Source: an uncultured Coriobacteriaceae bacterium (GTDB taxonomy: Bacteria; Actinomycetota; Coriobacteriia; Coriobacteriales; Eggerthellaceae). Taken from it: DNA of 45,558 bases. Position numbers and translations under genes: made by a program. The stretch lies in NCBI GenBank assembly GCA_902779135.1, contig CACZAR010000005.1, forward strand, positions 1 through 45,558, given 5' to 3'. Positions 2,184 through 34,053 of the stretch are shown here, piece after piece (positions within the stretch are counted from its first letter, which is position 1; each line of letters begins with the position of its first letter). Below the pieces are notes generated by a model. That model was not told the DNA's origin. It saw only the letters and a program-made list of their open reading frames with translations, and did not search any database.

Positions 2184-2210
2184 ATTTCAAGGACGTTAAA
2201 TCGCCGTTTC
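2184..2210 (-). promoter_or_regulatory. Candidate GlnR operator upstream of asnB
   Basis: Read on the minus strand the site is GAAAC-N6-TTAAC-N6-GAAAT (plus-strand half-sites at 2206-2210, 2195-2199, 2184-2188), each 11 bp apart. Streptomyces GlnR operators alternate gTnAC and GaAAC pentamers at the same spacing. The first three half-sites are identical to those of the site before asnB2 (32059-32096). Apart from this site I see nothing definite in the 2047-2348 gap. Confidence 0.6.
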
Positions 2211-4379: not shown

Positions 4380-4384
4380 TCGGG

Positions 4385-5056
4385 ATGCGCAAGCAAATCG
4401 CGTTTGTTGCTAACTCGCTCGACAACGCCTTCAAGTTCAGGCAGGTGTTCTCTGAACTCAATGTTGACGTTTCCGCTTCGTCAACAGCGCAGGTGAGGAG
4501 TCTCCTCAAGCCTGGCGCTTTGCTCGACCTCGTCATTTTCGAGGCGGTCGGCCAGTCGTCGGTCAGTTTGGACGAGATCCAGTTGCTTGCCGAAAACCAA
4601 GGGATTCCGCTGCTGGTCATAGTAGACGAGGAAGGGCTTTCGAACCTCACATTTTCCGGCCAGACGCCTAGCGACTTCATCGTTTCCGATGCGGGCGTTT
4701 CCGAGTGCATGGCTCGCGTCAAGCGCCTGATCGGGGGTCGCATACTAGACTCGGCGGACGACATCATCGTCGTGGACGACATGATCGTGAACCTGAACAC
4801 CTATCAGGTGTCGATTGCCGGCACGCCTGTCGACCTGACTTACCTGGAGTACGCGCTTCTTGCATTCTTCGTGCGGCATCCCTGTCATACGTTCTCGCGC
4901 AACATGCTGCTCCAAAATGTGTGGGGCTTCGATTACGGCGGCGGTTCGCGCACGGTCGACGTGCACGTGCGCCGCATCCGCTCGAAGCTTGGCCCAGGCT
5001 TGGCTCAGCATCTTGAGACCATTCGAGGCGTCGGCTACCTATGGAACCCGAAATGA
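4385..5056 (+). CDS. glnR: GlnR-like orphan OmpR-family nitrogen regulator
   Basis: A 223-residue transcription factor: N-terminal receiver-like domain (about 1-120) and C-terminal OmpR winged helix (about 130-223, with LTYLEYALL, SRTVDVHVRRIRSKLG and GVGYLW). The usual phosphoacceptor position reads LDLVIFE, so the aspartate is replaced by E53, and no sensor kinase gene is adjacent. Actinobacterial GlnR is an atypical response regulator that controls glnA, amtB and gltB without phosphorylation; the LLVIVDEEGL and DVHVRR stretches resemble it. Start ATG 4385 has AGGGG upstream and matches the GlnR N-terminus. GTG 4376, overlapping the asnB stop, is an alternative. Position between asnB and gltB, plus candidate operators in the same window, support the assignment. 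The exact target list is inference. Confidence 0.8.
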   Translation: MRKQIAFVANSLDNAFKFRQVFSELNVDVSASSTAQVRSLLKPGALLDLVIFEAVGQSSVSLDEIQLLAENQGIPLLVIVDEEGLSNLTFSGQTPSDFIVSDAGVSECMARVKRLIGGRILDSADDIIVVDDMIVNLNTYQVSIAGTPVDLTYLEYALLAFFVRHPCHTFSRNMLLQNVWGFDYGGGSRTVDVHVRRIRSKLGPGLAQHLETIRGVGYLWNPK

Positions 5057-11294: not shown

Positions 11295-11322
11295 TGCGCC
11301 TCTTCTTGAGCCCGCGCAACAT

Positions 11323-11344
11323 GGCGCCGGGTTTTTCGGGCGCC
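11323..11344 (+). terminator. Possible terminator after gltD
   Basis: Arms GGCGCC at 11323-11328 and 11339-11344 enclose a loop containing TTTTT. There is no T-run after the second arm, so this is only a hairpin candidate in the 124-bp gap before dapF. Confidence 0.35.
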
Positions 11345-11418
11345 GGGACCTCCAACTCGGCGCCCATCTGCAAAAGCGGCTGGATACTGCTATGGTGTCT
11401 TGCCTGATGGGAGCTGAC

Positions 11419-12300
11419 ATGAGATTCACGAAGATGCAGGGCCTCGGCAACGACTACGTGTACGTGAGCTGTTTTGACGAACGGGTCGACAATCCGTCAT
11501 CGCTTGCGCGCTTGGTGAGCGACCGCCATTTCGGCATCGGATCGGACGGGCTTATCCTCATACGTCCATCGACGCAGGCGGACTTCTTCATGGAGATGTT
11601 CAACGCCGATGGCTCGCGTTCGGAGATGTGCGGCAACGGCATTCGCTGTGTGGGGAAGTACGTGTTCGACCACGGTCTGACCGACAAGCGGCAAATCGAC
11701 GTGAACACGCTCGCGGGCGTGAAGCATTTGGCGCTTGCTGTCCAGGATGGGCAAGTGGAAGAGGTCACGGTCGATATGGGTTCCCCCGAGCTCGATCCGG
11801 CGCTCATACCTGTTGTCGCGGAGAGAATGCCGGTCGTGGCCGAGCCGATTGATGTCGCTGGCAGGCGGTTCGAGATGACCTGTGTGTCAATGGGCAATCC
11901 CCATGCCGTCATGTTCGTCGATGATGTTGAGGGCTTTCCCGTGGGGGAAGTGGGCCAGCCGTTCGAGTTCCACCCAGCTTTCCCCAAGCGCGTGAACGCG
12001 GAGTTCGTGCAGGTGCTCAACCGGCACGAGGTTCGCATGCGCGTGTGGGAACGTGGTACGGGCGAGACGCTCGCTTGCGGAACAGGTGCTTGTGCGAGCA
12101 CGGTTGCATGCATTTTGAACGGGCTGACCGATGACGAGGTGACGTTGCACTTGCTGGGCGGCGACTTGCGCGTGAGGTGGGATCGTGCGGTAAACCGGGT
12201 GTTCATGACAGGTCCCGCGGAAACCGTGTTCGAAGGCGAGTTCGATGCATCCGGCTGCCCGCAAGACGAACCGCCCCACTTCGTCGATCCGTCCTGGTAA
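11419..12300 (+). CDS. dapF: Diaminopimelate epimerase
   Basis: A 293-residue cytosolic enzyme converting LL- to meso-diaminopimelate for lysine and peptidoglycan. The N-terminus FTKMQGLGNDYVYV is diagnostic. The two catalytic cysteines are C71 in MCGNGIRCVGKY and C220 in ACGTGACAS, one in each half of the two-lobed fold. GGGAGC six bases before ATG 11419 fixes this start; an in-frame ATG at 11407 is less well placed. dapL follows after 59 bases containing a small hairpin, so the two DAP genes are probably co-transcribed. Together they give the DapL pathway from tetrahydrodipicolinate to meso-DAP. Confidence 0.97.
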   Translation: MRFTKMQGLGNDYVYVSCFDERVDNPSSLARLVSDRHFGIGSDGLILIRPSTQADFFMEMFNADGSRSEMCGNGIRCVGKYVFDHGLTDKRQIDVNTLAGVKHLALAVQDGQVEEVTVDMGSPELDPALIPVVAERMPVVAEPIDVAGRRFEMTCVSMGNPHAVMFVDDVEGFPVGEVGQPFEFHPAFPKRVNAEFVQVLNRHEVRMRVWERGTGETLACGTGACASTVACILNGLTDDEVTLHLLGGDLRVRWDRAVNRVFMTGPAETVFEGEFDASGCPQDEPPHFVDPSW

Positions 12301-12309
12301 GAACGAGTC

Positions 12310-12326
12310 GGGAGAATGGCTCTCCC
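12310..12326 (+). other. Intercistronic hairpin between dapF and dapL
   Basis: GGGAGA and TCTCCC arms (12310-12315, 12321-12326) enclose ATGGC. It belongs to a recurring type of GAGA-N-TCTC hairpins found after carA, carB and the radical SAM gene. It may be a weak terminator or a processing/stability element. Confidence 0.45.
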
Positions 12327-12359
12327 TATTCGCTATGCGCATCGAGTGAGGAGTTTTCC

Positions 12360-13589
12360 ATGTTCAAAGCCAATGACAACTACCTGAAGCTGCCTGGTGA
12401 TTACCTGTTCTCGGAAATCGCGTCCCGCATTGCCGCATATGGAGCGCAGAACCCCGACAAGGCCGGGCGCGTCGTGCGGTTGGGCATCGGGGATGTCACC
12501 CAACCTCTAGCTCCATCCATCGTGGAAGCCTTGCATGCGGCGGTCGATGAGATGGGTGATGCGACGACGTTTCGCGGGTACGCTCCCGACCTGGGCTATG
12601 ACTTCTTGCGCGAGACTATCGCGGAGTGCGATTTCAAATCTCGCGGAGCGCTGGTCGAGGCCGACGAGGTGTTCGTCAGCGATGGCGCCAAATCCGATTG
12701 CGCGAACATCCAGGAAATCTTCAGCGCCGATGCGCGCATTGCCGTGTGCGACCCCGTGTACCCGGTCTACGTCGACTCCAACGTGATGGCGGGCCGCACG
12801 GGAACGTACGACGCTGCCACTGGGTTGTGGAGCGACGTCGAGTACATGCCCTGCACGAGAGAGGGGGGCTTCACGCCCAGGCTGCCCGATGCCGATGCAG
12901 ACGTATCGCTCGTCTACCTGTGCTTCCCCAACAATCCGACGGGGGCCGCTATCGCGAAACCCCAGTTGCAGGCATGGGTCGACTACGCCAACGAGCACGG
13001 TGCGGTCATCGTGTACGATGCCGCTTACGAGGCCTACATCTCGGATTCCGGCTTGCCGCACTCCATCTACGAGTGCGATGGCGCGCGTAGATGCGCCATC
13101 GAGATCAGAAGTTTCTCGAAAAACGCGGGTTTCACGGGCACGAGGCTCGGCTATACGGTCGTGCCGCGCGACCTGAAGGATGCCCGTGGCATTTCGATGC
13201 ATGATTTGTGGGCTCGGCGCCATGGCACGAAGTTCAACGGTGCGCCGTACATCGTGCAGCGTGCGGGTGAGGCTGTCTACAGCGAGCGGGGCCACTTCGA
13301 GACGCGTGAGCAGATCGCGTACTACATGGAAAACGCACGCATCATCCGCGAAGGCTTGGCTGAGGCGGGCTATGAAGTTTTCGGCGGCGTGAACGCGCCT
13401 TATCTGTGGCTTGCCGTGCCCGATGGCATGTCGTCGTGGCAGTTTTTCGATCTGCTGCTCGAAACGGTGCAGGTCGTCGGAACGCCGGGCTCGGGGTTCG
13501 GTCCGAGCGGCGAGGGGTACTTCCGCCTGACGGCGTTCGGGTCCCGTGAATCCGCCGAAGAAGCCGTTCGCCGCATCCGGTCTTTGTAA
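12360..13589 (+). CDS. dapL: LL-diaminopimelate aminotransferase
   Basis: A 409-residue PLP enzyme of fold type I that makes LL-DAP directly from tetrahydrodipicolinate using glutamate as amino donor. It begins NDNYLKLPGDYLF. Visible motifs are FRGYAPDLGY, FVSDGAKSDCANIQ, CFPNNPTG, and SFSKNAGFTGTRLGY with the PLP lysine K254. ATG 12360 follows GAGTGAGGAG; the frame is open further upstream over dapF but no family match lies there. Using glutamate links it to the GOGAT genes nearby. This route avoids succinylated intermediates and is known in several anaerobes and actinobacteria. Confidence 0.96.
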   Translation: MFKANDNYLKLPGDYLFSEIASRIAAYGAQNPDKAGRVVRLGIGDVTQPLAPSIVEALHAAVDEMGDATTFRGYAPDLGYDFLRETIAECDFKSRGALVEADEVFVSDGAKSDCANIQEIFSADARIAVCDPVYPVYVDSNVMAGRTGTYDAATGLWSDVEYMPCTREGGFTPRLPDADADVSLVYLCFPNNPTGAAIAKPQLQAWVDYANEHGAVIVYDAAYEAYISDSGLPHSIYECDGARRCAIEIRSFSKNAGFTGTRLGYTVVPRDLKDARGISMHDLWARRHGTKFNGAPYIVQRAGEAVYSERGHFETREQIAYYMENARIIREGLAEAGYEVFGGVNAPYLWLAVPDGMSSWQFFDLLLETVQVVGTPGSGFGPSGEGYFRLTAFGSRESAEEAVRRIRSL

Positions 13590-15120: not shown

Positions 15121-15514
15121 GGTGATACTCCCTTCATCGTTGCATGAACACCTCGCAATTGGTGCGGCAATCCTTGCGCCGCGCCGATTGGCTCTTTTTG
15201 CGCAATGAGCAGTCTAGCACGGTGACTCTTCCAAGGCCAGCTGTGGCATCACTGTGCTGCTCGCATGAGGATGCGATAGCCCAAAGGAGCCCGAAGGGGC
15301 CTAAAGGAGCTCAAAGGGGAGTATGCCTCTTGGAATTGTTGAGCTAGCTTCCGACGGCCCACCGACTCATTAGGCTTCCGGATTGCTTTGTTGCAGGCAG
15401 GTTTCCCCGCTATTAACACCCGATTTCGAAACACGACCGTAAATCCTTAGAAACATCCGCCCCCTATCTTCGGGTTAGTCCGAACCGGCACATCGCGAGG
15501 AAGGGGCATTTCAC
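15121..15514. other. 394-bp divergent intergenic region between the Nif11 peptide gene and glnA
   Basis: It contains an imperfect inverted repeat at about 15158-15191 just upstream of the peptide gene, which could be an operator. A purine-rich stretch of AAAGGAG/GAAGGGG repeats lies at 15280-15320. The GlnR-type array and glnA promoter are at its right end. I see no gene in it. Confidence 0.5.
15428..15454 (+). promoter_or_regulatory. Candidate GlnR operator upstream of glnA
   Basis: GAAAC (15428), GTAAA (15439) and GAAAC (15450) are exactly 11 bp apart. This matches the GaAAC-n6-gTnAC-n6-GaAAC layout of Streptomyces GlnR sites except for one base. A possible -10, TATCTT, lies at 15465-15470. 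Confidence 0.6.
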
Positions 15515-17599
15515 ATGGGACGAATCGCTGAGGAATACGGCACGCTGGTGTTCAACGATCATACGATGCAGGAGCTGCTGCCGTCTGCGACGTACAAGGC
15601 GCTGGCCAAGACGATCAAGGAAGGCAAGCCGCTCGACATCGAAGTTGCGAATGTGGTTGCGCATGCCATGAAGGAATGGGCCGTTGCCAACGGTGCCACG
15701 CATTACACGCACTGGTTCCAACCGCTGTCGGGCATCACGTCCGAAAAGCACGATGCTTTCCTCGATCCTCAGTCCGACGGCCGGGCTATCATGAAGTTCT
15801 CGGGCAAGGCGCTCATCCAGGGCGAGCCCGATGCGTCGAGCTTCCCGTCAGGCGGTATTCGCGCTACGTTCGAGGCGCGCGGCTATACGGCGTGGGATCC
15901 CACGAGCTATGCGTTCATCAAGGACGAGGTGCTGTGCATTCCGACGGCGTTCTGCAGTTACACAGGCGAGGCGCTTGACAAGAAGACGCCGCTCTTGCGT
16001 TCGATGGAGGCCGTATCGGCGCAGGCATGCAAGGTGCTGTCGTACTTCGGGCAGGACGTGCCGCGCGTCACCACCACAGTCGGCGCCGAGCAGGAATACT
16101 TCCTCATCAAGGAGGAGGATTACGAGCAGCGCCAGGACCTGATCCTCACCGGGCGCACGCTCTTCGGCGCGCCGCCGTGCAAGGGCCAGGAGATGGAGGA
16201 GCATTACTTCGGCGCCATCCGTCCGACGGTGAACAACTACATGAAGGAGCTCGACGAGGAGCTCTGGAAGCTGGGCGTGTCTGCAAAGACCAAGCACAAC
16301 GAGGTTGCCCCGTGCCAGCACGAACTGGCTCCCATGTTCACGATTTCGAATGTCGCCATCGACCACAATCTGCTCACGATGGAGCTCATGCGCACGATCG
16401 CGTCGCGCTATGGGCTCGTGTGCCTGCAGCATGAGAAGCCGTTCGAGGGAGTCAACGGTTCGGGCAAGCACAACAACTGGTCGATTGCGACCGACTCCGA
16501 GAATCTGCTCGATCCTGGTAAGACGCCTGCGTCCAATCTGCGCTTCCTCGTGTTTTTGGCTGCGGTCGTGCAGGCGGTCGATGACTACCAAGACCTGCTT
16601 CGCATCTCGGTCGCATCTGCCGGCAACGACCATCGTCTGGGCGCGAACGAGGCGCCGCCGGCCGTAATATCGATCTTCCTGGGCGACGAGCTCGGGCGCG
16701 TGGTCGACGCGATCATTGCGGGCAAGGACGACGACGGTGCAGACGCGGTCTACATGGATCTTGGCGTGGAGGTGCTGCCCAGCTTCGAGCGCGACAACAC
16801 CGACCGCAACCGCACGTCTCCATTCGCATTCACGGGCAACAAGTTCGAGTTCCGCATGCCCGGCTCGCAGGTGAACCTGTCGGATGCCAACACCATCCTG
16901 AACACGATCGTCGCCAAGTCGCTCAAGTGCTTCTGCGAAGCCGTCGAGGGTGCGGGAGATTTCGAGAAGGCCGCTTTCGCGTGGGTGCGCAAGACGCTCG
17001 CGGACCATCAGCGCATCATCTTCAATGGCGACGGTTACGCGGACGAGTGGTTGGAAGAGGCCGAGAGGCGTGGGCTTATGAACCTGAAGTCGCTCGTGGA
17101 TGCTGCTCCGCATATGCTCGACGAGAAGAACATCGCGCTGTTCGAGGAGTTCGGCGTGTTGAACGAAGCTGAGAATCACAGCCGTTACGAGGTCAAGCTC
17201 GAGACGTACTCCAAGCTCATCAACATCGAGGGCCAGACGATGAGCCACATGACCAAGCGCAAGATCGCCCCGGCGGTGAGCGCCTATGCCGAGCAGATCG
17301 CCAGCACCATCAACGCCAAGAAGGCTGCCAACCCCGACCTCGACCCGGTTGCCGACCAGAAGCTGCTTGCCAAGCTGAACGCGGGCGCCAACGAGATTTC
17401 CGATGCGGTCGACGAACTCGACGAAGCGCTGGCTGTAGCCCAGGGCACCGACGAGGCGCTGGCCATGGCCCGCTCGTACCACGACGGCGTGCTCGCTGCG
17501 ATGGGTCGCCTGCGTGTGGCATGCGACGCCATGGAGGGCATCGTCTCGACCGAGGCCTGGCCGCTTCCGACCTACAACAAGATCCTGTTCTACTGCTAA
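15515..17599 (+). CDS. glnN: Glutamine synthetase type III
   Basis: A 694-residue GSIII, which ligates ammonia to glutamate with ATP in the cytosol; the length fits type III rather than the 450-470 residues of type I. Catalytic motifs include TTVGAEQEYFLI, NEVAPCQHELAP, EGVNGSGKHNNWS, NDHRLGANEAPPA and FEFRMPGS. Ribosome site AGGAAGGGG precedes ATG 15515. Type III enzymes lack the adenylylation site used by GlnE, in keeping with the absence of glnE or glnD here. A GlnR-type array upstream suggests control by nitrogen status. Two palindromic repeats and a hairpin follow before purF. It is the only glutamine synthetase gene in the window. Confidence 0.97.
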   Translation: MGRIAEEYGTLVFNDHTMQELLPSATYKALAKTIKEGKPLDIEVANVVAHAMKEWAVANGATHYTHWFQPLSGITSEKHDAFLDPQSDGRAIMKFSGKALIQGEPDASSFPSGGIRATFEARGYTAWDPTSYAFIKDEVLCIPTAFCSYTGEALDKKTPLLRSMEAVSAQACKVLSYFGQDVPRVTTTVGAEQEYFLIKEEDYEQRQDLILTGRTLFGAPPCKGQEMEEHYFGAIRPTVNNYMKELDEELWKLGVSAKTKHNEVAPCQHELAPMFTISNVAIDHNLLTMELMRTIASRYGLVCLQHEKPFEGVNGSGKHNNWSIATDSENLLDPGKTPASNLRFLVFLAAVVQAVDDYQDLLRISVASAGNDHRLGANEAPPAVISIFLGDELGRVVDAIIAGKDDDGADAVYMDLGVEVLPSFERDNTDRNRTSPFAFTGNKFEFRMPGSQVNLSDANTILNTIVAKSLKCFCEAVEGAGDFEKAAFAWVRKTLADHQRIIFNGDGYADEWLEEAERRGLMNLKSLVDAAPHMLDEKNIALFEEFGVLNEAENHSRYEVKLETYSKLINIEGQTMSHMTKRKIAPAVSAYAEQIASTINAKKAANPDLDPVADQKLLAKLNAGANEISDAVDELDEALAVAQGTDEALAMARSYHDGVLAAMGRLRVACDAMEGIVSTEAWPLPTYNKILFYC

Positions 17600-17608
17600 C
17601 TGATGCTT

Positions 17609-17683
17609 ACCAGACACTTACCAGGTGAGTGTCTGGTGCCAGACAGGTTTCCTCACCAGACACTTACCAGGTGAGTGTCTGGT
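17609..17683. repeat. Two direct copies of the 29-bp palindrome
   Basis: Units at 17609-17637 and 17655-17683 are identical (half-site ACCAGACACTTACC, other half with GTGAGTGTCTGGT), separated by 17 bp. They sit 10 bp after the glnA stop. Confidence 0.92.
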
Positions 17684-17710
17684 GCAGATTTCGCGAACGA
17701 ACAGGAATGC

Positions 17711-17740
17711 CGACCTCCCAGCCGTTGCGCTGGGAGGTCG
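17711..17740 (+). promoter_or_regulatory. Perfect hairpin in the purF leader
   Basis: CGACCTCCCAGC (17711-17722) pairs with GCTGGGAGGTCG (17729-17740) around a 6-base loop. The right arm holds GGGAGG, which could act as a ribosome site for ATG 17750, so the hairpin might mask it. There is no T-run, so it is not a standard terminator. Confidence 0.45.
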
Positions 17741-17767
17741 ACGTTAACGATGCATGATTGGAGATTT

Positions 17768-19189
17768 ATGGCGACATCTGCATTTCCAGGGGAACGGCCT
17801 GACAGGCCCGAGGAGGCGTGCGCTGTGTTCGGCGTTTATGCGCCGGGGCAAGACGTGGCGCGTTTGACGGCGTTCGGATTGCAGGCGTTGCAGCATCGCG
17901 GTCAGGAGAGCGCGGGCATCGCGGTCGGCGATGGCAAAACGGTGCTCATTCACAAAGACCTTGGCCTTGTCGACCAGGTGTTCACCGAGGAGACGCTTTC
18001 GCACCTTGAAGGCGATCTCGCCATAGGCCATACGCGTTATTCCACAGCTGGCGGCGGTGGATGGATGGCTGCGCAGCCCCATATCTCGGCTATCGATGAT
18101 GAGTTAATTGCGCTCGCGCACAATGGGACGCTTGTCGACACGTTGCCGCAACGCGCTTGGCTTGCCAACGAGGGCGTCCAGCTCTACGGGTACACCGATA
18201 GCGAGGTGGCAGCACGCACGATAGGCGTCAATACGCGCCGCGCTGGGCATATTCGGGCGGGCATTCGGCTTATGATGCAGCAACTGCACGGCGCCTATGC
18301 CATCGTGCTGGCCACGCCTACGGCGCTCTACGCCTTTCGCGATCCGAACGGCATTCGTCCACTTTCGATTGGGAAGTTGCCAGATGACAGCGGATGGGTT
18401 GTTGCGAGCGAAACCTGCGGACTCGATGCGATCGGTGCCGCTTTCATGCGCGATGTCGAGCCGGGCGAGATCATCAAGGTCAGCGCCGACGGTTTCGAGT
18501 CCGAGCAGGGGATTGAACCAGGAAGGCGTGCGAGCTGCATCTTCGAGTACGTGTACTTCGCACGGCCCGATAGCGTGCTCGATGGTGATGTCGTGTACCA
18601 CGCTCGCCGTCGTATGGGGCGCGTCCTCGCGCGCGAGGCTCCAGTCGATGCCGATTACGTGTTGGGCGTGCCCGATTCGGGCGTGCCGCCTGCCTTGGGC
18701 TACGCGGCCGAAAGCGGTCTCGAGTACTGCGACGGCATCGTGAAGAATCGCTATGTTGGCCGCACGTTCATCCAGCCCACGCAAGAGATGCGTCAGATGG
18801 GCATCCGCATGAAGCTCAACCCGCTGCCGAGCGTCATCGCGGGCAAGCGGCTTGTGGTAATCGACGATTCCGTCGTTCGCGGCAACACGTCAAAGCAGCT
18901 TGTGGCCATGTTGCGCCAGGCTGGTGCGAAGGAGGTGCACCTGCGCAGCGTGAGCCCTGAGGTGATGTGGCCGTGCTTCTACGGCATCGATACCGATACG
19001 CGCGACCAGCTCATTTCGGCGAACATGACACACGACGAGGTGTGCGCGCATATTGGATGCGATTCGCTGGCATTCATCAGCCTCGAGGGGTTAAGGAGTG
19101 CGGTGCATTCCGTTCACGACGGTTATTGCGACGCATGCTTCAGCGGCGATTACCCTGCGCCCATTCCATACCAGACACTTACCAGGTAA
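17768..19189 (+). CDS. purF: Amidophosphoribosyltransferase
   Basis: First enzyme of purine synthesis: PRPP plus glutamine to phosphoribosylamine, cytosolic, 473 residues. The class II glutaminase domain starts at C18 (EEACAVFGVY), exposed after removal of a short propeptide. LQHRGQESAGI and HNGTLVD follow, then the phosphoribosyltransferase domain with VPDSGVPPA and VVIDDSVVRGNT at the PRPP loop, and C-terminal CFSGDYP. ATG 17768 has TTGGAG just upstream; ATG 17750 is an in-frame alternative. The last six codons (YQTLTR) and the TAA come from a palindromic repeat at 19170, so the native C-terminus was probably replaced. No other pur gene is adjacent. Confidence 0.96.
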   Translation: MATSAFPGERPDRPEEACAVFGVYAPGQDVARLTAFGLQALQHRGQESAGIAVGDGKTVLIHKDLGLVDQVFTEETLSHLEGDLAIGHTRYSTAGGGGWMAAQPHISAIDDELIALAHNGTLVDTLPQRAWLANEGVQLYGYTDSEVAARTIGVNTRRAGHIRAGIRLMMQQLHGAYAIVLATPTALYAFRDPNGIRPLSIGKLPDDSGWVVASETCGLDAIGAAFMRDVEPGEIIKVSADGFESEQGIEPGRRASCIFEYVYFARPDSVLDGDVVYHARRRMGRVLAREAPVDADYVLGVPDSGVPPALGYAAESGLEYCDGIVKNRYVGRTFIQPTQEMRQMGIRMKLNPLPSVIAGKRLVVIDDSVVRGNTSKQLVAMLRQAGAKEVHLRSVSPEVMWPCFYGIDTDTRDQLISANMTHDEVCAHIGCDSLAFISLEGLRSAVHSVHDGYCDACFSGDYPAPIPYQTLTR

Positions 19190-19215
19190 GCTGTCTGGTA
19201 GGTAAGCTATCTGGT
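19170..19215. repeat. Palindromic repeat overlapping the purF stop, plus a partial copy
   Basis: A 30-bp unit at 19170-19199 (half-site ACCAGACACTTACC, other half AGCTGTCTGGT) contains the purF TAA at 19187-19189. A half-copy, GGTAAGCTATCTGGT, follows at 19201-19215. Confidence 0.9.
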
Positions 19216-19249
19216 GTTTCTTGTTTGCAGCTTTGTCAAAGGGGCGTTT

Positions 19250-19771
19250 ATGAATGGGACGATACGGCTTGCGACCGTTGAAGATGCCGAGGCGATGCTA
19301 GACGTCTATCGGCCATATGTTGAGCGCACCGCAGTGTCGTTCGAGCTGGACCCACCGGATGTAGCCGAATTCGAGAATCGAATCGCGCATACGCTCGAGC
19401 GCTATCCGTGGCTTGTCCTAGAGTGTGGTGGGGTTATTGTCGGATACGCTTACGCAGGACCCCTCAAATCACGGGCGGCTTATAGCCATAGCGTTGAAGT
19501 CTCCATTTACCTGCGTGAAGATGAGCGTGGACAGGGGCTGGGCCGTTGGCTGTACGATAGTCTCGAAGCACTTTTGCGGGAGCTCGGCGTGACGAACTTG
19601 TACGCATGCATCACGTATTCTGATGATGAGCATGACCCCTATTTGACACGCGATAGCGTGTTTTTCCACGAGCATGTCGGATATACGCGCGTCGGCGCTT
19701 TCCATAATTGCGGTCGAAAATTTGATCGATGGTATTCGGTCGTGTGGATGGAAAAGATACTGCACGATTAG
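19250..19771 (+). CDS. GNAT acetyltransferase, phosphinothricin acetyltransferase-like
   Basis: A 173-residue single-domain N-acetyltransferase. It starts IRLATVEDAEAMLDVYRPYV and has FELDPP and the acetyl-CoA loop EDERGQGLGRWLY. It ends with FHEHVGYTRVGAFHNCGRKFDRWYSVVWMEK, the pattern of the Pat/Bar/YncA group that acetylates phosphinothricin, methionine sulfone or similar amines. ATG 19250 follows AAAGGGG. It lies between palindromic repeats and shows lower GC than its neighbours, like the transposase gene after it, so it may be a later arrival. The natural substrate cannot be told from sequence. Confidence 0.88.
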   Translation: MNGTIRLATVEDAEAMLDVYRPYVERTAVSFELDPPDVAEFENRIAHTLERYPWLVLECGGVIVGYAYAGPLKSRAAYSHSVEVSIYLREDERGQGLGRWLYDSLEALLRELGVTNLYACITYSDDEHDPYLTRDSVFFHEHVGYTRVGAFHNCGRKFDRWYSVVWMEKILHD

Positions 19772-19798
19772 ACGCTTAGCGAGCAGGCGCTTACATCC

Positions 19799-19827
19799 AC
19801 CAGACACTTACCTGGTAAGTGTCTGGT
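19799..19827. repeat. 29-bp palindrome after the acetyltransferase gene
   Basis: Perfect palindrome with one central base (ACCAGACACTTACC, T, GGTAAGTGTCTGGT), extended by CC/GG to 19797-19829. It lies 28 bp after the stop codon. Confidence 0.92.
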
Positions 19828-20124
19828 GGAAAAACCTCGCGGATAACGCTAATCGAACGTGCTTGCGCTTGACGTGCTGTTTTAGAACTCCAGTAAACTC
19901 ATGCGGATATGTCGCTTGAACGTCGATGAACGTTGCCGTCGCAACGAGGAGAATCTGAAGAGAAAAATTCCCGAATGCCGTCGGCAATTCACCGTCAGTT
20001 AGACGTCGTCATGACGGTCGCTCTGCAAGATTGCGTTGTCAAACTCAACTCACAACGGCACGGACCAGACACTTACCTGGCAAGTGTCTGAAAGCAAGTG
20101 CCCTGCGAGATGAGGGGAAGATGC
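19828..20124. other. 297-bp gap before the RAYT gene
   Basis: It contains one palindrome (20064-20090) and a possible weak promoter (TTGACG at 19869, TAAACT at 19894, 19-bp spacer). A GAGGAGAA sequence near 19948 lacks a good start codon after it. I see no gene. Confidence 0.4.
20064..20090. repeat. Palindromic repeat upstream of the RAYT gene
   Basis: ACCAGACACTTACC, T, GGCAAGTGTCTG: a 27-bp unit with one mismatch and a trimmed right end. It lies 35 bp before the transposase start and forms the left border of the RAYT gene. Confidence 0.88.
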
Positions 20125-20904
20125 ATGTCTTATAGCAAAAGAGAGCAAAGTGAAGCGGATCTTTACCATGTTTACGCAAGGGGAACCGGACGGCGGTTGA
20201 TATTTGAAGATGACACGGACAGGATTCAGTATTGTCGTCGCATGAGTCGAATCCTCGATGAAACCAAGGGTGGTTTATACGCATGGTGTCTGATGGGGAA
20301 CCATATCCATCTTGTGGCAAACATGCAAATCGAGGTTCTCTCGGCTTTCATGAAACGGTTAAACGGGGGATATGCGCGCTACTTCAACGAGCGCCATGGA
20401 AGAAGCGGCCACTTGTTCGAGTCGCGATTCGGAAGCGAGCCTATCAAGACAGACGAACAGCTTATGACCGCAGTACGCTACGTTCATCGCAACCCTGTTA
20501 AGGCAAATATGACCGTGAGCTGCGATTATAGGTGGTCGAGTTACAGGGAATACATATCTTTTCCGAGCATAACTGATACGGCTTTTACGCTCGGGCTGTT
20601 TAACGGTTTGGAGGCGTTCAAGCGCTCTCACGAGGCTGATGTCGCGGACCATTTTTTGGGAGAGCGGGATGAACTGCCCGGCGTTGACGATATGCAAGCT
20701 CGCAGGTGCATGACAACCGACGAGGCAGTAGTGCTTTCTATATCGCTCCTAGGCAATGATGCGTTCAATGCTATTGCGGGATTGCCTAGAGAAGAGCGCG
20801 ACAGATGCCTGGTCATCTTGAAGAAAGGCGGTTTGTCAATTCGCATGATTTCGCTCGTGACAGGCATCAACAGGAATACCGTGTGGGCTGCTGGTAGGGA
20901 ATAA
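20125..20904 (+). CDS. REP-associated tyrosine transposase (RAYT, Y1/IS200-like)
   Basis: A 259-residue single-strand DNA transposase of the TnpA-REP type. The HUH metal site is H60-I-H62 in CLMGNHIHLV. The catalytic tyrosine is most likely Y83 in LNGGYARYFNERHGRSGHLFESRF. The family tail motif AVRYVHRNPVKA and WSSYREY follows, and the C-terminal 60 residues hold a helix-turn-helix (SIRMISLVTGINRNTVW). ATG 20125 has GAGGGGAAG upstream. Palindromes border it at 20064-20090, 20922-20950 and 20966-20994, the arrangement expected when a RAYT acts on its own repeats. GC and codon use look lower than in neighbouring genes. No terminal inverted repeats or second transposase gene are present, so it is probably a domesticated single copy. 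Confidence 0.92.
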   Translation: MSYSKREQSEADLYHVYARGTGRRLIFEDDTDRIQYCRRMSRILDETKGGLYAWCLMGNHIHLVANMQIEVLSAFMKRLNGGYARYFNERHGRSGHLFESRFGSEPIKTDEQLMTAVRYVHRNPVKANMTVSCDYRWSSYREYISFPSITDTAFTLGLFNGLEAFKRSHEADVADHFLGERDELPGVDDMQARRCMTTDEAVVLSISLLGNDAFNAIAGLPREERDRCLVILKKGGLSIRMISLVTGINRNTVWAAGRE

Positions 20905-20921
20905 TCGGCGACCATATAGCG

Positions 20922-20994
20922 ACCAGACACTTACCAGGTAAGTGTCTGGTCGCAGCTCCTGCCTCACCAGACACTCACCCGGTAAGTGTCTGGT
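20922..20994. repeat. Two palindromes downstream of the RAYT gene
   Basis: Units at 20922-20950 (extended by GCG/CGC flanks) and 20966-20994, separated by 15 bp. They lie 17 bp after the transposase stop and upstream of the carA promoter region. Confidence 0.92.
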
Positions 20995-22425: not shown

Positions 22426-25710
<3,285 letters not shown>

Positions 25711-27736: not shown

Positions 27737-27814
27737 GCCAGGGCGCCGGCTCATCTGGCCCATCGTGCTCAGTGAACTAGGGGCCAGGGCGCCGGCTCAT
27801 CAGGCTCATCGTGC
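27737..27814. repeat. 32-bp direct repeat between glmS and murT-gatD
   Basis: Two near-identical copies at 27737-27768 and 27783-27814 (GCCAGGGCGCCGGCTCATC core). They differ at two positions and lie 46 bp apart in the convergent gap; the second copy covers the murT-gatD stop codon. GATGAG and CTCATC segments could pair, so the duplication may have copied a terminator. Confidence 0.75.
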
Positions 27815-30016
27815 GCGAACGCCGAGCTTGGTGCACATGAAGGCGTTGGCGGCATGCTCGGCTCGGTCGTCGAGCGCGCTGAGCGTAGGGGCGGGCAAAC
27901 CGTTTTCGGCGGCTCTTCTTGCAAGCGCCTTTTCTATAAGCCAGTCGGCAATTTCGGGGTTCTTGGCAAGCAGGGGTCCGTGCAGGTACGTGGCCACGAC
28001 ATTGCGGTATCGGGCGCCGTCGAACCCATCTCGTCCGTTGTTGCCCTCGCCGCGACCGTCTATGATGCGGCCGAACGGCTCGCATCCATCGCCGAGGAAC
28101 GTGCGCCCGGCATGGTTCTCGTAGCCGACGACGGGCGCTTTCGCCAACGGGCTTTCCAACGCCACGTTTCCGACGAGCCGATTGTGCGAGCCGCCTTTTG
28201 CGCGTTTCGTCTCGATGTCGAGGATTCCCAGCCCGGGCACGGTCTCATTGCCGAGCAGCCAGGTGCGCCCGAGAATCTGGAAACCTCCGCAGATAGCCAG
28301 CAGAACGCCGCCGCCTTCCACGTAGTCTCGCAGTGCAGTTGCCTGCTCGAGCAGGCTTCGCGATGCGGCGCGTTGCTCGCGGTCGGGGCCGCCACCCAGA
28401 AAGACGATATCGGCTTGCGACAAGTCTACCGGCTCTCCGCGCGTCGCGCGCACGACCTCAACGTCGATTGCGCGTCTGTGCGCGCGAGTCGCCAGAACCG
28501 CCACATTGCCTCCGTCGCCGTAGAGGTTCAGCAGCTCCGGATACAGGTGGACGATCGTGAGCTTCGCATGTGGGAGCGTTTGGCTTGCAGGCGACACCAC
28601 CTGGTTGCAGGTGGGTATTCCCACCTCGTGCGTGCACGTCCGAACAGCCGCATGCCCTGCATCGCTCGCCTTGGGCTCGAAAGCCTTCTCGTCACGTGCC
28701 ATCTCGTCGAGCTCCGCCTTGACGTCCGGAAGTGCCGTGTAGTTCGCAATCAGGAAAAGGCCGGCATCGGGTTTCGCGCAAGCCGCTTTCCGTGCGAGGT
28801 CGCGCGCTCCGTCGACGAGTTCAGCATCGATTCCCGCATATTTCAGCCTGACCTGCAAGTCGTTGCGCCTTATGCCGCCAGCGAACACGACGAGATCGTC
28901 GACTGTGGCCAGCTCCTCGAAGTCGACGTCCCACAGCCATGAGACGTCGTGGCCATCGGCTTCCTTGTCGTTGATGAAGAACGCAGCTGCCTTTGGCCCT
29001 GGGGCGTCGGCGCCGATCCGCAGGTTCTGGTTGAGCCCGACGGGATTCTTGGCAAGGTTGAGCAATACGTCGTGCCCGCCGACGTGGTAGGCCTGGAGCC
29101 TTCCGTTGTCAGGGGCGAACGCACGAATCGCGCGTTCGACGTATTCGAACGGAATGTTGCAGCAGTCGGCGGCGGCGCAAGTCGCCAGAAGGTTGTAGGT
29201 CATGTACGCGCCCGCGAGCGGCGATTCCAGATGCCCGACGGTCGTGCCGTGACGCAGCACGCCGAACGAAATCCCCTGTCTGTCGATTCGTACGCCGCGG
29301 GCCCGATACATCGGCTCGGTTCGCGCGAATCCACATCGGGGGCAGCGGTACGATCCCAGCTGTCCGTACTGGTGCCAGGCGTAGTCGAGCTCGGCGTCGC
29401 ATGCCTGGCACAGGCCGGAATCGGCCACCTTGTTCTGGAGGAGTCCCAAGTCTTCTGAAATGCCGAAGGGCTTGCACTTGTTCGCCGAATGGTCGGCGAT
29501 GGCCTGGCAGAACGGGTCGTCGGCATTGTAGACGAGCACCGTGCCGGGCGACGATGCCAGGGCTTCGGCTATTCGTTGTTGGACGTGGTCGATTTCGCCT
29601 GCACGATCCAACTGGTCGCGGAACAGGTTCAGCAGAACGACGAAATCGGGCTGCAATTGGGGCATGATCTTGGCCAGCCACAGCTCGTCGCTCTCGAACA
29701 CGCCCCAATCGGCGGTGCGGGCGTGCAGCAACGCGCTCGCCACGCCGGAGTCGAGATTGGCGCCGGTGCGGTTGCATGCGACTGTTTTCCCATACGCTTC
29801 GAGCACATCTGAGAGCAGGTTCGTGACCGTCGTCTTTCCGTTCGTCCCGACAACCACGATGGTCCCTTCTGAGACCCGCGGCTTCAGGTGGGCGATGAGG
29901 TTGGGATCGACGACGAGACCTGCCTTGCCGGGGAAATTGGCCGCCGGCCTGTGGGCCACTTTTGCGAGCGCCCATGTCGCTGCCGCCCCTACGGCTTTCG
30001 CAAGTTCGAACTTCAT
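27806..30016 (-). CDS. MurT-GatD fusion: lipid II isoglutaminyl synthase
   Basis: A single 736-residue polypeptide joining two subunits that are normally separate. Residues 1 to about 460 are MurT: Mur-ligase P-loop GTNGKTT (57-63), Zn-ribbon cysteines C203, C206, C225 and C228, and the C-terminal DUF1727-type domain. A linker of about 30 residues leads to GatD from about residue 490 (LTIVHLYPELLNLYGDGGN), with nucleophile C576 in AICGGFQILG and the catalytic histidine in TYLHGP. The complex amidates the alpha-carboxyl of D-glutamate in lipid II using glutamine and ATP at the inner membrane face. The ATG overlaps the asnB2 stop (ATGA), so the two are translationally coupled. A sequencing frameshift is unlikely, as both halves and the linker read cleanly. 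Confidence 0.93.
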   Translation of the reverse strand: MKFELAKAVGAAATWALAKVAHRPAANFPGKAGLVVDPNLIAHLKPRVSEGTIVVVGTNGKTTVTNLLSDVLEAYGKTVACNRTGANLDSGVASALLHARTADWGVFESDELWLAKIMPQLQPDFVVLLNLFRDQLDRAGEIDHVQQRIAEALASSPGTVLVYNADDPFCQAIADHSANKCKPFGISEDLGLLQNKVADSGLCQACDAELDYAWHQYGQLGSYRCPRCGFARTEPMYRARGVRIDRQGISFGVLRHGTTVGHLESPLAGAYMTYNLLATCAAADCCNIPFEYVERAIRAFAPDNGRLQAYHVGGHDVLLNLAKNPVGLNQNLRIGADAPGPKAAAFFINDKEADGHDVSWLWDVDFEELATVDDLVVFAGGIRRNDLQVRLKYAGIDAELVDGARDLARKAACAKPDAGLFLIANYTALPDVKAELDEMARDEKAFEPKASDAGHAAVRTCTHEVGIPTCNQVVSPASQTLPHAKLTIVHLYPELLNLYGDGGNVAVLATRAHRRAIDVEVVRATRGEPVDLSQADIVFLGGGPDREQRAASRSLLEQATALRDYVEGGGVLLAICGGFQILGRTWLLGNETVPGLGILDIETKRAKGGSHNRLVGNVALESPLAKAPVVGYENHAGRTFLGDGCEPFGRIIDGRGEGNNGRDGFDGARYRNVVATYLHGPLLAKNPEIADWLIEKALARRAAENGLPAPTLSALDDRAEHAANAFMCTKLGVRAR

Positions 30017-31968
30017 GTTCGTGGCGCGAGCTTTTTCGCGCTATCGCCGAAGAACACCTCGTGCCAGCATAAGAAGCAGTAGATGTTCCAAATGCGCATC
30101 ATCTTGAGCTTGTTGCGGCCGGCGATGGTCGTGAAATCGGCCGAGCGGTGGTCGTCGAGCATTTTCACGAGGTAATCGACGTTGAAGAACTCGTGGGCGG
30201 CGGGCGACGTGAACGCCTCCTTGATGCGCTCGTAATACAGGTCAGTTTGCAGCCAAACCGTCAGCGGCGTGATGACCGGCTGCTTGGGCATGTTGGCGAC
30301 TTTTTTCTGGAAACCGAGCTTGGCGGCGGCAACGCGCAGCGCGTATTTCGAGTGCTCGCCGTCGACGCGGCACGACGTGGGCAGTTGCAACGCGACGTCG
30401 AGCACGCGCTTGTCGAGGAACGGCACGCGCAGCTCGAGTGAGTGGGCCATCGACATTTTGTCGGCCTTCAGGCAGATGTCGAAGGGCATGTACGACACCA
30501 TGTCGACGTACTGGGTCTGCGTGATGACGTCGAGCCCTTGGGCCGCGGCCTCGTCGAAATGCGGCTTGCACCACTTCCACGGCTTGCAGGGGCCGTCGTA
30601 ACCGCGCAGTACAAGGGGCACTTCGTCCCACATGTAGTTCATGACGGCGCGCTGATAGCTGCGCTCGGGGCCTCCGGCGCCGCGCATGGCGAAGTGACGG
30701 CCATGAAACGGCGGCAGTTTTTCGGCGATCGCTCCTGCCGCGGCGCGAACGGGGTGTGGCACGGCCTTGAAGTACTTCGCGAACTCGAACTGGTCGTGGT
30801 AGATCCAATAGCCGCCGAACAGCTCGTCAGCCCCTTCGCCGGACTGCACCACCTTGACCTGCTCGCTCGCCAGGCGCGATACGAAATACAGCGGGATGGC
30901 CGACGGCGCGCCGAGCGGCTCGTCCATGTGGTATTGCTCGACGGGCACGATGTCGAGAAACTCCTCGGCGCTGACCTGCGTTTCCCAATTGGGGAGGTGC
31001 GCCCACTGGGCGAATGCGCGCGAATCGGCAAGCTCGTCGAGCTTGATGTCGAAATCGTCGAGCGCGGCGATTTCGGCGAGCTTTTCTTCGCAGCCTATGT
31101 CGTAGCCCACCGAGAACGTCTTAACGTCGGGTGCGTGTTGGCCCATGCAGTATGCCGCCAGCGACGAGTCGATGCCGCCGGACAAGAAGCTGCCGATCTC
31201 GACGTCGGCGATCTCGTGTGCCGTGACCGACTCGTCGAACACCTCGTTCACGATGTCGGCCCATTCGTCGAGCGTTTTCGGCTCGTCGATTTTGTAAGTG
31301 ATGTGGAAGAAGCACTCGATGTGCATCTGGCCATCCTTGAACACCATGAAATGGCCGGGGAGCAGCTTGTGCACGCCTGCGAACATGGTCTGCGAGTCGT
31401 TCAAGTACTCGAAGCACAGGTATTGCGGAAGCATCGCACGGTTGACAGCGGGCGTGAACTTCGGGTGTGCGTAGAACGCCTTGATTTCGGAACCGTAGAT
31501 GAGCCGGTCTCCGTCCTGCGTGTAGTAAAGCGGCTTGATGCCGAAGATGTCGCGTGCGCAGACGAGTTGCTTTCGCACGTCGTCCCAGATGGCGATTGCG
31601 AACATGCCACGCAACCGCTCGAAGACGCCCACGCCCCATTCCTCGTAGCCGTGAACGACGACCTCGGTGTCACCGTTCGTCACGAACTCGTAGCCCGCCG
31701 CGCGCAGCTCGTCGCGCAGTTCCCGGAAGTTGTAGATCTCGCCGTTGAACGTGACGGTCACGTCTTCCTGGGCGTTGCGCATGGGCTGTTTGCTGCCCTC
31801 GAGGTCGATGATCGACAGGCGGCGGAAGCCCATCGCGATGCGGTCGTTGACGTAGTAGCCGTCGTCGTCGGGGCCGCGGTGCTTGATGCGGTCGGCCATG
31901 TCGCGCACGATGGCGAGATTGGCCTCGGCGTCGTAGTCGACTGTCGTGAACCCCACGAATCCGCACAT
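30013..31968 (-). CDS. asnB: Second AsnB-type amidotransferase, coupled to murT-gatD
   Basis: A 651-residue class II amidotransferase. Cys2 is the nucleophile (MCGFVGFT), with FRRLSIIDLEG, FNGEIYNF and GDTEVVVHGY in the glutaminase domain, and SGGIDSSLAAYC and SGEGADELFGGYW in the ATP-binding domain. It lacks the extra loop seen in the copy at 2349. The start at 31968 is fixed by Cys2 and by GGAGG upstream. Bacillus AsnB and Corynebacterium LtsA of this family amidate meso-DAP in peptidoglycan rather than aspartate. The four-base overlap with murT-gatD makes a cell-wall substrate likely here, though asparagine synthesis is not excluded. A four-part GlnR-type array lies upstream. Confidence 0.93.
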   Translation of the reverse strand: MCGFVGFTTVDYDAEANLAIVRDMADRIKHRGPDDDGYYVNDRIAMGFRRLSIIDLEGSKQPMRNAQEDVTVTFNGEIYNFRELRDELRAAGYEFVTNGDTEVVVHGYEEWGVGVFERLRGMFAIAIWDDVRKQLVCARDIFGIKPLYYTQDGDRLIYGSEIKAFYAHPKFTPAVNRAMLPQYLCFEYLNDSQTMFAGVHKLLPGHFMVFKDGQMHIECFFHITYKIDEPKTLDEWADIVNEVFDESVTAHEIADVEIGSFLSGGIDSSLAAYCMGQHAPDVKTFSVGYDIGCEEKLAEIAALDDFDIKLDELADSRAFAQWAHLPNWETQVSAEEFLDIVPVEQYHMDEPLGAPSAIPLYFVSRLASEQVKVVQSGEGADELFGGYWIYHDQFEFAKYFKAVPHPVRAAAGAIAEKLPPFHGRHFAMRGAGGPERSYQRAVMNYMWDEVPLVLRGYDGPCKPWKWCKPHFDEAAAQGLDVITQTQYVDMVSYMPFDICLKADKMSMAHSLELRVPFLDKRVLDVALQLPTSCRVDGEHSKYALRVAAAKLGFQKKVANMPKQPVITPLTVWLQTDLYYERIKEAFTSPAAHEFFNVDYLVKMLDDHRSADFTTIAGRNKLKMMRIWNIYCFLCWHEVFFGDSAKKLAPRT

Positions 31969-32058
31969 GCTTGCTGCGCCTCCGATTCTTTTCGTTCCCG
32001 TGCGTACGTCTCGATTTTCCATCGAACGCATTGCGGTTCCGTTTCGCGGCAAACAAGT

Positions 32059-32096
32059 GAAACGCGCCCTTAACCCCCTTGAAATATCATGGCAAT
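32059..32096 (+). promoter_or_regulatory. Candidate GlnR operator upstream of asnB2-murT-gatD
   Basis: Four half-sites at exact 11-bp steps: GAAAC (32059), TTAAC (32070), GAAAT (32081), GCAAT (32092). This is the most complete array in the window and shares its first three elements with the asnB site. It lies 91 bp from the asnB2 ATG, on the far side of which glnK ends. Confidence 0.65.
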
Positions 32097-32131: not shown

Positions 32132-32470
32132 CTAGATTGCCTGTTCGCCGCGCTCGCGGGTGCGGATGCGGATGACCTCCTCGACGGGGCTGATGAAGAC
32201 TTTGCCATCGCCGACATCTCCGGTGGCGGCCGTTTCGCAGATGAGATCGACGAGCTTGTCGGCATCGTCGTCGGCGACAACGAGTTCGAACTTGACCTTC
32301 GGCAGCATGTTCAGGAGCACTTCGGTTCCACGGAAGTATTCCGACCAGCCATGTTGGTTGCCGCATCCCATCACTTGGGCGATGGTCATGCCTGATACGT
32401 CGGCTGCGAACAGGGCGTCCTTCAGCTCTTCCATCTTCTCGGGGCGAACGATTGCGATGATTCGCTTCAT
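32132..32470 (-). CDS. glnK: PII nitrogen regulatory protein
   Basis: A 112-residue trimeric PII signal protein that senses ATP/ADP and 2-oxoglutarate and typically plugs AmtB. The sequence aligns end to end with Escherichia coli GlnB: MKRIIAIVRPEK, GMTIAQV at the ATP site, T-loop 37-55, and signature TGDVGDGKVFI. T-loop position 51, the tyrosine modified by GlnD in other bacteria, is valine (RGTEV), and position 46 is phenylalanine, so neither uridylylation nor adenylylation at Y51 is possible. AAGGAGG precedes the ATG, and the gene starts 13 bases after amtB, forming an amtB-glnK operon. Probable role: metabolite-controlled inhibition of AmtB. Confidence 0.96.
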   Translation of the reverse strand: MKRIIAIVRPEKMEELKDALFAADVSGMTIAQVMGCGNQHGWSEYFRGTEVLLNMLPKVKFELVVADDDADKLVDLICETAATGDVGDGKVFISPVEEVIRIRTRERGEQAI

Positions 32471-32483
32471 ATCCGGTTCCTCC

Positions 32484-33758
32484 TTAGTCCATGCCCAGGT
32501 ATGCGGGATACGCGCTCTCGCCGTGGTTGACCACGTCGAGGCCGAGCGCTTCTTCTTGCTCGCTCACGCGCAGGGTGCCGCCGAACGCAGCCTTCACCAC
32601 GAGCCCGATCACGAGTCCGCCCACGATGACGAACGCAAGCGTCACCAGGATACCGAGCAGCTGGCTGACCAGCAGTGACGGGTCGCCGGTGTAGACGAGT
32701 CCGCCGAAATCGGTCCACGAGAGCTCAGGCACGCAGAAAATGCCGGTGAGCAGGCCGCCCACGGTGCCGCCAATCGAATGGCAGCCGAATGCGTCGAGCG
32801 CGTCATCGTAGCCGATCCTACGTTTGGCATAGCTGATGGCGAAAAAGCAGCACGGCGCCGTGACGAAGCCCATTACGATAGCAGCCCACGGCTCGACGAA
32901 GCCCGCTGCAGGCGTAATGGCCACGAGGCCGGCTACCAAGCCGGTGCATGCGCCAACAAGCGTTGGTTTGCCGACGCGAATACGTTCGACGAGCATCCAC
33001 GACAACATGCCCGCCGCTGAGGCGACGATCGTGTTGAGCAATGCGAGGGCCGCCACGCCGTCGGCTGCGAACTGCGAGCCGGCGTTGAAGCCGAACCAGC
33101 CGAACCACAAAAGCGTTGCGCCCAAGACCACGAACGGCACGTTGTGCGCGCGGTAGCTCATCACGCCGAACCCGCGCCGCTTGCCGAGCAGCAGGCAGAG
33201 CACCAGTCCGGTGACGCCCGAGCTGATGTGCACCACGTCGCCGCCTGCGAAGTCGAGCGCGCCGATGACATCGCCGATGAGGCTGCCATCGCCGCCCCAG
33301 ACCATGTGCGCGAGCGGCGCATAGACGATAGGAACCCACAGTGCGATAAACGCGACGACGGCTCCGAACTTCATGCGGCCGGCTACGGCGCCGGTGATGA
33401 TGGCACACGTGATCATGGCGAAGGCCATCTGGAAACCGATGTCGACGATGGCGGGGTAGGTGGCATCTTCTGGAACGTTGGCTGCCTCTGCCAGCATGTT
33501 GCTGGTTGCAGAGAAGCATCCCATCTGGTCGAATCCGCCGAAGAATGACAGCGACCCGTCGCCGCCGTACGCGAACGACCATCCGCATGCCACCCACATC
33601 ACTCCGACGACGCCGATGACCGCGAGTACCATCATCATGGTGTTCACGACGTTCTTGCGCCGCGAAAGGCCGCCGTAGAAGAACGAGAGGCCAGGTGTCA
33701 TGAGTGCGACCAGCATCGTGCACACAATCATGAATGCGGTGGAGCCTGTGTCGTACAT
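32484..33758 (-). CDS. amtB: Ammonium transporter
   Basis: A 424-residue membrane channel of the Amt/Rh family, with about eleven hydrophobic helices and an N-terminus facing out. Motifs include MTPGLSFFYGGLSRRKNV, the first pore histidine in GDVVHISSG, the second in AFGCHSIGGTVGG, and FGWFGFNAGS. It imports ammonium when it is scarce and is gated by the PII protein encoded next. ATG 33758 has AAGGAAG nine bases upstream and is preferred over GTG 33767. A four-part GlnR-type array lies about 90 bp before the start, as expected for the classic GlnR target. Palindromic repeats mark the upstream edge of the locus. Confidence 0.97.
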   Translation of the reverse strand: MYDTGSTAFMIVCTMLVALMTPGLSFFYGGLSRRKNVVNTMMMVLAVIGVVGVMWVACGWSFAYGGDGSLSFFGGFDQMGCFSATSNMLAEAANVPEDATYPAIVDIGFQMAFAMITCAIITGAVAGRMKFGAVVAFIALWVPIVYAPLAHMVWGGDGSLIGDVIGALDFAGGDVVHISSGVTGLVLCLLLGKRRGFGVMSYRAHNVPFVVLGATLLWFGWFGFNAGSQFAADGVAALALLNTIVASAAGMLSWMLVERIRVGKPTLVGACTGLVAGLVAITPAAGFVEPWAAIVMGFVTAPCCFFAISYAKRRIGYDDALDAFGCHSIGGTVGGLLTGIFCVPELSWTDFGGLVYTGDPSLLVSQLLGILVTLAFVIVGGLVIGLVVKAAFGGTLRVSEQEEALGLDVVNHGESAYPAYLGMD

Positions 33759-33845
33759 ACCAATCACTTCCTTTCGGGAAACGGCTTTGCCGATAGCCCG
33801 ATTCTCGAAAGGAAGGATTGCGGGTTTGTTTCAGGGACGGGTCGT

Positions 33846-33883
33846 GAAATCCAGGGTTAATTGCCCTGTAACGTCCTCGCAAC
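33846..33883 (+). promoter_or_regulatory. Candidate GlnR operator upstream of amtB-glnK
   Basis: Four elements at 11-bp steps: GAAAT (33846), TTAAT (33857), GTAAC (33868), GCAAC (33879). GTAAC fits the gTnAC half exactly and the others are one or two bases off. Its position before amtB, the best-known GlnR target, adds weight. Confidence 0.6.
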
Positions 33884-33894
33884 TTTGAGATGGT

Positions 33895-34053
33895 GCCAGA
33901 CAGTCACCTGGTAAGTGTCTGGTGAGGATTACCAGACGGTCACACGGTAAGTGTCTGGTAACCACCAGACACTTACCGTGTGACCGTCTGGCGTGGCGAG
34001 CCGCCAGGCATCCGCCAGACGCTCACCAGACACTTACCAGGTGACTGTCTGGT
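33895..34053. repeat. Cluster of four palindromes in nested inverted order
   Basis: Units at 33895-33923, 33931-33959, 33964-33991 and 34025-34053. Unit 1 is the reverse complement of unit 4 apart from an end base, and unit 2 of unit 3 (28-nt arms, 4-nt loop), giving a hairpin within a hairpin. It lies between the amtB and HAD gene starts, so it insulates two divergent promoters. Confidence 0.92.

Follow-up and report, generated by a model that had tools for sequence, protein, structure and literature searches.

In Lactococcus, an amidated branch is built on the stem peptide of peptidoglycan by a three-enzyme module: D-Asp is made by RacD, joined to the stem by AslA and amidated by AsnH (PMC4155827; PMC3885529). 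AsnB proteins that amidate the cell wall have been given two marks, a long insert and the lack of the aspartate-binding segment of E. coli AsnB (PMC8554201). Fused MurT-GatD ORFs have already been recorded, as rare, in Actinobacteria, and wall amidation is usually discussed as limited by the supply of glutamine, for example in the S. aureus glnRA mutant (PMC3267633).

The locus considered here lies in a stretch of 45,558 nucleotides (the window) from an uncultured Coriobacteriaceae bacterium, placed in the Eggerthellaceae, whose genome assembly amounts to 2.17 Mb in 202 contigs and is ~83% complete. The window carries asnB1, the gene for a GlnR-type regulator, gltBD, dapF, dapL, glutamine synthetase III (GSIII), purF, carAB and glmS, followed on the opposite strand by amt-glnK-asnB2-murTgatD. 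All four units of this last series are on the minus strand: the ammonium transporter gene amt (32484-33767; Pfam Ammonium_transp), the PII protein gene glnK (32132-32470; Pfam P-II), asnB2 (30013-31968; 651 aa) and the murT-gatD fusion (27806-30016; 736 aa). The stop codon of asnB2 and the start codon of murT-gatD overlap as ATGA at 30013-30016, which reads TCAT on the forward strand, exactly as an earlier note on this DNA had described. The overlap is directly readable as TCAT in G013 and is implied by the coordinates in G010, and a chance origin was dismissed on these grounds. Both dapF (in ORF 11206-12300) and dapL (in ORF 12177-13589), which the same note had placed in this region, are present at ~15-20 kb from asnB2-murTgatD.

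Seven glutamine amidotransferases (AsnB1, GltB, PurF, CarA, GlmS, GatD and AsnB2) are encoded within ~32 kb (2349-33767), which also holds GSIII, the GlnR-type regulator, PII and Amt, and the order of these nitrogen genes is largely kept across the genus; a comparison of the amidotransferase count with chance was set aside as evidence, the genome total being only assumed. REP-like palindromes with CAGACACTTACC half-sites occur around purF, carA and amt (17611-20992, 24106-24139, 33910-34038 and other sites), with 22 matches against 0.05 expected. A transposase-like ORF (20098-20904) resembles REP-associated tyrosine transposases at a score under the family cut-off, and ORF 19214-19771 resembles the arsinothricin N-acetyltransferase ArsN1 (168.6 bits, under the cut-off of 210).

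The coupling of asnB2 to murT-gatD is local. Where the region is kept, most members of the genus have amt-glnK-murTgatD with no asnB in between, and asnB2 precedes murT-gatD in only three genomes, that of the window (G000), G010 and G013; the two-gene operon was therefore rejected as an ancestral feature. In G013, pyrG and not glnK lies upstream of asnB2, so that asnB2-murTgatD behaves as a unit of its own. In G002 (L089, 11525-13541), the slot that asnB2 takes in the window, between glnK and murTgatD, is filled by an orthologue of asnB1, and the gaps are small. The presence of two different asnB paralogues beside murT-gatD argues for a functional tie.

The murT-gatD gene is one ORF, and its product is predicted by homology, Pfam domains, residues and a structural model to be a lipid II D-glutamate amidotransferase. 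The MurT part (28682-30016, minus strand; about residues 1-445) contains Mur_ligase_M (55-188) and MurT_C (321-429), and the GatD part (27809-28564, minus strand; about residues 485-736) contains GATase_3 (487-686), a CobB/CobQ-like glutaminase. In an alignment of 16 fused homologues, C576, H679, D357, E108, the GTNGKT stretch at 57-62 and the zinc cysteines C203/C206/C225/C228 are invariant; C576 and H679 correspond to GatD C94 and H189, and D357 to MurT D349 (PMC6113224). The predicted structure (pLDDT 84, pTM 0.81) has its best PDB matches in MurT/GatD chains of S. aureus, S. pyogenes and S. pneumoniae, and its main low-confidence stretch is the linker 448-482 (pLDDT <50). A scan of named genomes found the closest protein in RUG12647, an uncultured Coriobacteriaceae (96% identity); all 18 of the full-match loci from Eggerthellales/Coriobacteriia are single ORFs, and the distant matches in Peptococcaceae and Levybacteria have MurT and GatD as two genes. 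The fusion, which scores under the NCBIfam equivalog cut-offs, is itself not new, given the earlier actinobacterial record. With both domains present and all of the tested residues kept, the role in D-glutamate amidation first proposed for it is very likely. A second, solitary MurT-like gene (G000:C57:10521-11816, L002), with 31% identity to the MurT part, has no GatD adjoining; it is followed by an arylamine N-acetyltransferase-like ORF, and similar copies are found in several genomes of the genus.

The pair of genes and the nitrogen-type promoter box ahead of it are real. When up to one mismatch is tolerated, a box pattern, RTTTC-N6-RTTAA-N6-RTTTC, is found four times in the window (shuffled sequence gives an expectation of 0.00) and five times over the 2.17 Mb of the genome, in which its reversed form is found twice. 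The four in the window precede asnB1 (2184-2210, plus strand), GSIII (box at 15401-15427, plus strand; gene at 15515-17599), asnB2 (32059-32085, minus strand) and amt (33846-33872, minus strand, one mismatch), and the fifth lies elsewhere. The box of asnB2, ATTTC-N6-GTTAA-N6-GTTTC, has no mismatch and recurs upstream of asnB2 in G013, which bears out the GlnR-type site claimed at the outset. Because the pattern was composed after viewing the upstream regions of amt, asnB1, asnB2 and GSIII, it is descriptive and not blind, and the evidence consists in its rarity elsewhere and in a footprint common to the amt promoters of other genomes. When the amt upstream regions of 10 loci are aligned, half-sites at 11-base spacing are followed by GAAAC-N6-GCAAT, and the region upstream of asnB2 has this same layout in the window, with the second element at 32030-32045 (minus strand), and in G013. 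A loose half-site score is weak for asnB2 (p ~0.1), so that the three-half-site pattern and the comparative footprint are needed. The candidate regulator, an orphan protein of the OmpR family encoded at 4376-5056 (plus strand) in overlap with the asnB1 stop codon, shows only a Trans_reg_C domain; its best PDB matches are 8hig/8hih, which we take to be GlnR, and it shares 43% identity with a Rhodococcus protein annotated as glnR. It is plausible that wall amidation is tied to nitrogen status in this way.

AsnB2 is a class II glutamine amidotransferase with GATase_7/GATase_6 and Asn_synthase domains (Pfam), and its substrate is where the present analysis departs from the earlier note. There, AsnB2 was taken for an enzyme that amidates the free carboxyl of meso-diaminopimelate (meso-DAP) like LtsA and the AsnB of Bacillus and Listeria, which would place both stem-peptide amidations on one transcript. 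The wall does appear to be of the meso-DAP type, as MurE carries the DNPR motif and the description of the family records only a meso-DAP-containing wall (PMC6113628). AsnB2 is also nearer to the meso-DAP amidases than to E. coli AsnB, and it shows both features published as marks of wall-amidating AsnB, since the SGEGADELFGGY motif is followed by the long insert and the E. coli TTIRAS segment is missing; yet these marks do not separate meso-DAP amidases from AsnH. Trees place AsnB2 and its orthologues with the AsnB of L. curvatus, L. crispatus, Subdoligranulum, Collinsella and other Coriobacteriia, in an AslA-linked (AsnH-like) clade that includes neither AsnB1 nor the Listeria/LtsA-type enzymes. 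Grouping AsnB2 with proven meso-DAP amidases is rejected by the AU test (p = 0.0007), in which the fetched Listeria AsnB stood as the proven member and no sequence from B. subtilis or C. glutamicum was included. The same grouping is rejected more weakly for AsnB1 (p = 0.0085), so that neither paralogue is placed among the proven enzymes. The AsnB/LtsA sequences that stood for B. subtilis and C. glutamicum in the other trees and comparisons did not come from a database record, and similarity was the one check on them (64.5% between the B. subtilis AsnB so used and that of Listeria; 68% is given for a comparison of Listeria AsnB in PMC8554201). In alignment, the RY-x-GNA, RGD and KLGFPVP stretches common to the proven meso-DAP enzymes are missing from AsnB2. 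AsnB1 (2349-4379, plus strand) resembles those enzymes more closely and is present in almost all of the family, whereas AsnB2 tracks an AslA-like ligase. Amidation of meso-DAP by AsnB2 is thus unlikely and was dropped as first choice on account of the tree, the AU test and the aslA linkage, while the wider proposal of a peptidoglycan amidation unit keeps the support of the MurT-GatD residues, the GlnR-type site and the meso-DAP wall. In AsnB1, the ATP-binding loop reads SSGIDSS where SGGIDSS is usual.

It is somewhat more probable than otherwise that AsnB2 amidates a branch of the D-Asp type, and this reading is preferred over meso-DAP. In trees drawn without L. lactis AsnH, the AsnB of L. crispatus and L. 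curvatus fall inside the AsnB2 clade with support of 93-98. The walls of both species are of the Lys-D-Asp type. In L. crispatus, asnB adjoins an aslA homologue, and in L. curvatus a racemase gene precedes that of the ligase in a racemase-aslA pair. An AslA-like ATP-grasp gene lies within ~1.2 kb of asnB in 12 genomes (G017, G021, G023, G026, G024, G016, G031, G030, G019, G042, Gordonibacter pamelaeae and G071); the ligase-linked asnB of G042 belongs to a neighbouring clade and not to the AsnB2 clade. An Asp/Glu racemase ORF stands between asnB and the ligase gene in G024, G031, G016, G019, G030 and a Subdoligranulum plasmid. Across 61 genomes, the ligase is present in all 15 with an AsnB2-clade gene and in 13 of the 46 without (Fisher p = 5e-7), and within the genus in 3/3 against 0/12, p values that are optimistic because the genomes are related and not independent samples; the better evidence is that asnB and the ligase gene adjoin again and again, in arrangements that differ. 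Although asnB2 adjoins the ligase gene in other genera, it does not in the genus of the window, where the ligase gene of G000 (G000:C93) and G010 lies between murJ and mraZ-mraW-ftsL, a context of wall synthesis. The window-type ligase forms a subfamily of its own, with ~30% identity to lactobacillar AslA. In other Coriobacteriia families, the ligase occurs near murJ, a DegT-type aminotransferase, a FemAB-like protein and uvrC (L198 1940-7712 in G060, L199 and L200), and an AsnB2-clade gene was not detected.

Several points weigh against a D-Asp branch: the 13 genomes with the ligase but no AsnB2-clade gene, the low identity of the window-type ligase to lactobacillar AslA, the separation of asnB2 from the ligase gene in this genus, the search for a D-Asp source, and the peptidoglycan of Eggerthella lenta, reported as unbranched A1gamma (PMC3035228), which would count if that species carries the pair of asnB2 and ligase. 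As to the D-Asp source, a search of the window's genome (83% complete) found no aspartate racemase, and its sole Asp/Glu racemase has the LGCTHY signature of MurI; Gordonibacter likewise gave a single Asp/Glu racemase match. The donor could hence be D-Glu, or D-Asp made by a racemase in the missing part of the genome. If the former, the AslA-like ligase would attach another acid, such as D-Glu made by MurI, and AsnB2 would amidate that branch, with which the position of the Planococcus AsnB inside the AsnB2 clade agrees. Planococcus walls are Lys-D-Glu. However, the racemase found between asnB and ligase in other clade members is of the PCNTA/LGCTEL type and not MurI, which leaves a branch of another acid improbable.

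The least probable reading is that AsnB2 is an asparagine synthetase whose position only reflects the gathering of glutamine-using nitrogen genes under GlnR: the crowding of seven amidotransferases with GSIII, GlnR, GlnK and Amt, a score above the TIGR01536 (asparagine synthase) cut-off and the synthesis of asparagine by some wall-amidating AsnB proteins (PMC8554201) would fit it, but AsnB2 lacks the aspartate-binding segment of E. coli AsnB, its partners are wall genes, both in the AslA/racemase linkage of its clade and in the overlap with murT-gatD, and no AsnRS above cut-off was found in the window's genome, so that free asparagine may be dispensable for translation.

Taken with the tree, the AU test and the missing motifs, the two amidations are probably those of the stem D-Glu and of a D-Asp-type branch. 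The MurT-GatD fusion would convert the D-glutamate at stem position 2 to D-isoglutamine with glutamine and ATP. The AslA-like ATP-grasp ligase, whose gene lies in another part of the genome, would add an acidic D-amino acid to the meso-DAP stem, with D-Asp as the likeliest, and the AsnH-like AsnB2 would amidate the free carboxyl of that amino acid. Through the box that lies 91-117 bases upstream of asnB2, a GlnR-type regulator would make the production of both enzymes depend on nitrogen status. The analysis shows the arrangement of the genes, their domains and catalytic residues, the clade to which AsnB2 belongs, the linkage of that clade to aslA/racD and the promoter box; what the enzymes act on, where D-Asp would come from and which way regulation runs are inferred. 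As a tentative extension, some Eggerthellaceae, although described as bacteria with plain meso-DAP, might use the AslA-like ligase and AsnB2 to put an amidated branch of the D-Asp type on meso-DAP, and adjust the amidation of both branch and D-Glu to the nitrogen supply through a GlnR-controlled operon. The novelty lies in an operon under probable nitrogen control and in a branch module predicted for a family with meso-DAP walls. In this family of gut bacteria, on whose wall chemistry little work has been done, a nitrogen-regulator box precedes the amidase genes themselves. Sensitivity to lysozyme and to antibiotics is affected by amidation in other Gram-positives, and amidation should also change the fragments visible to host sensors; an amidated branch in Gordonibacter-type walls is a specific prediction.

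Compared with known systems, AsnB2 has in common with the LtsA/AsnB meso-DAP amidotransferases of C. glutamicum, B. subtilis and L. monocytogenes the superfamily, the domain layout and the meso-DAP wall, but it falls outside their clade and is without their common motifs. The racD-aslA-asnH system of L. lactis and lactobacilli is closer in that homologous loci bring together an AsnB-family amidotransferase, an ATP-grasp ligase and an aspartate racemase, and its lactobacillar AsnB members fall inside the AsnB2 clade; the window differs in belonging to a meso-DAP actinobacterial family, in having asnB2 joined to murT-gatD and the ligase at the mraZ cluster, and in that no aspartate racemase was found in its genome. 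The fusion resembles the MurT/GatD lipid II isoglutaminyl synthase of S. aureus and S. pneumoniae in both domains, in the zinc ribbon and in a catalytic triad that spans MurT and GatD, whereas it is one chain with a disordered linker of ~35 residues. Finally, the window agrees with the actinobacterial GlnR regulon in its GlnR-type regulator and in the 11-base-spaced half-sites before amt, GSIII and asnB1, but unlike that regulon as it is known, its predicted set extends to the genes for peptidoglycan amidation.
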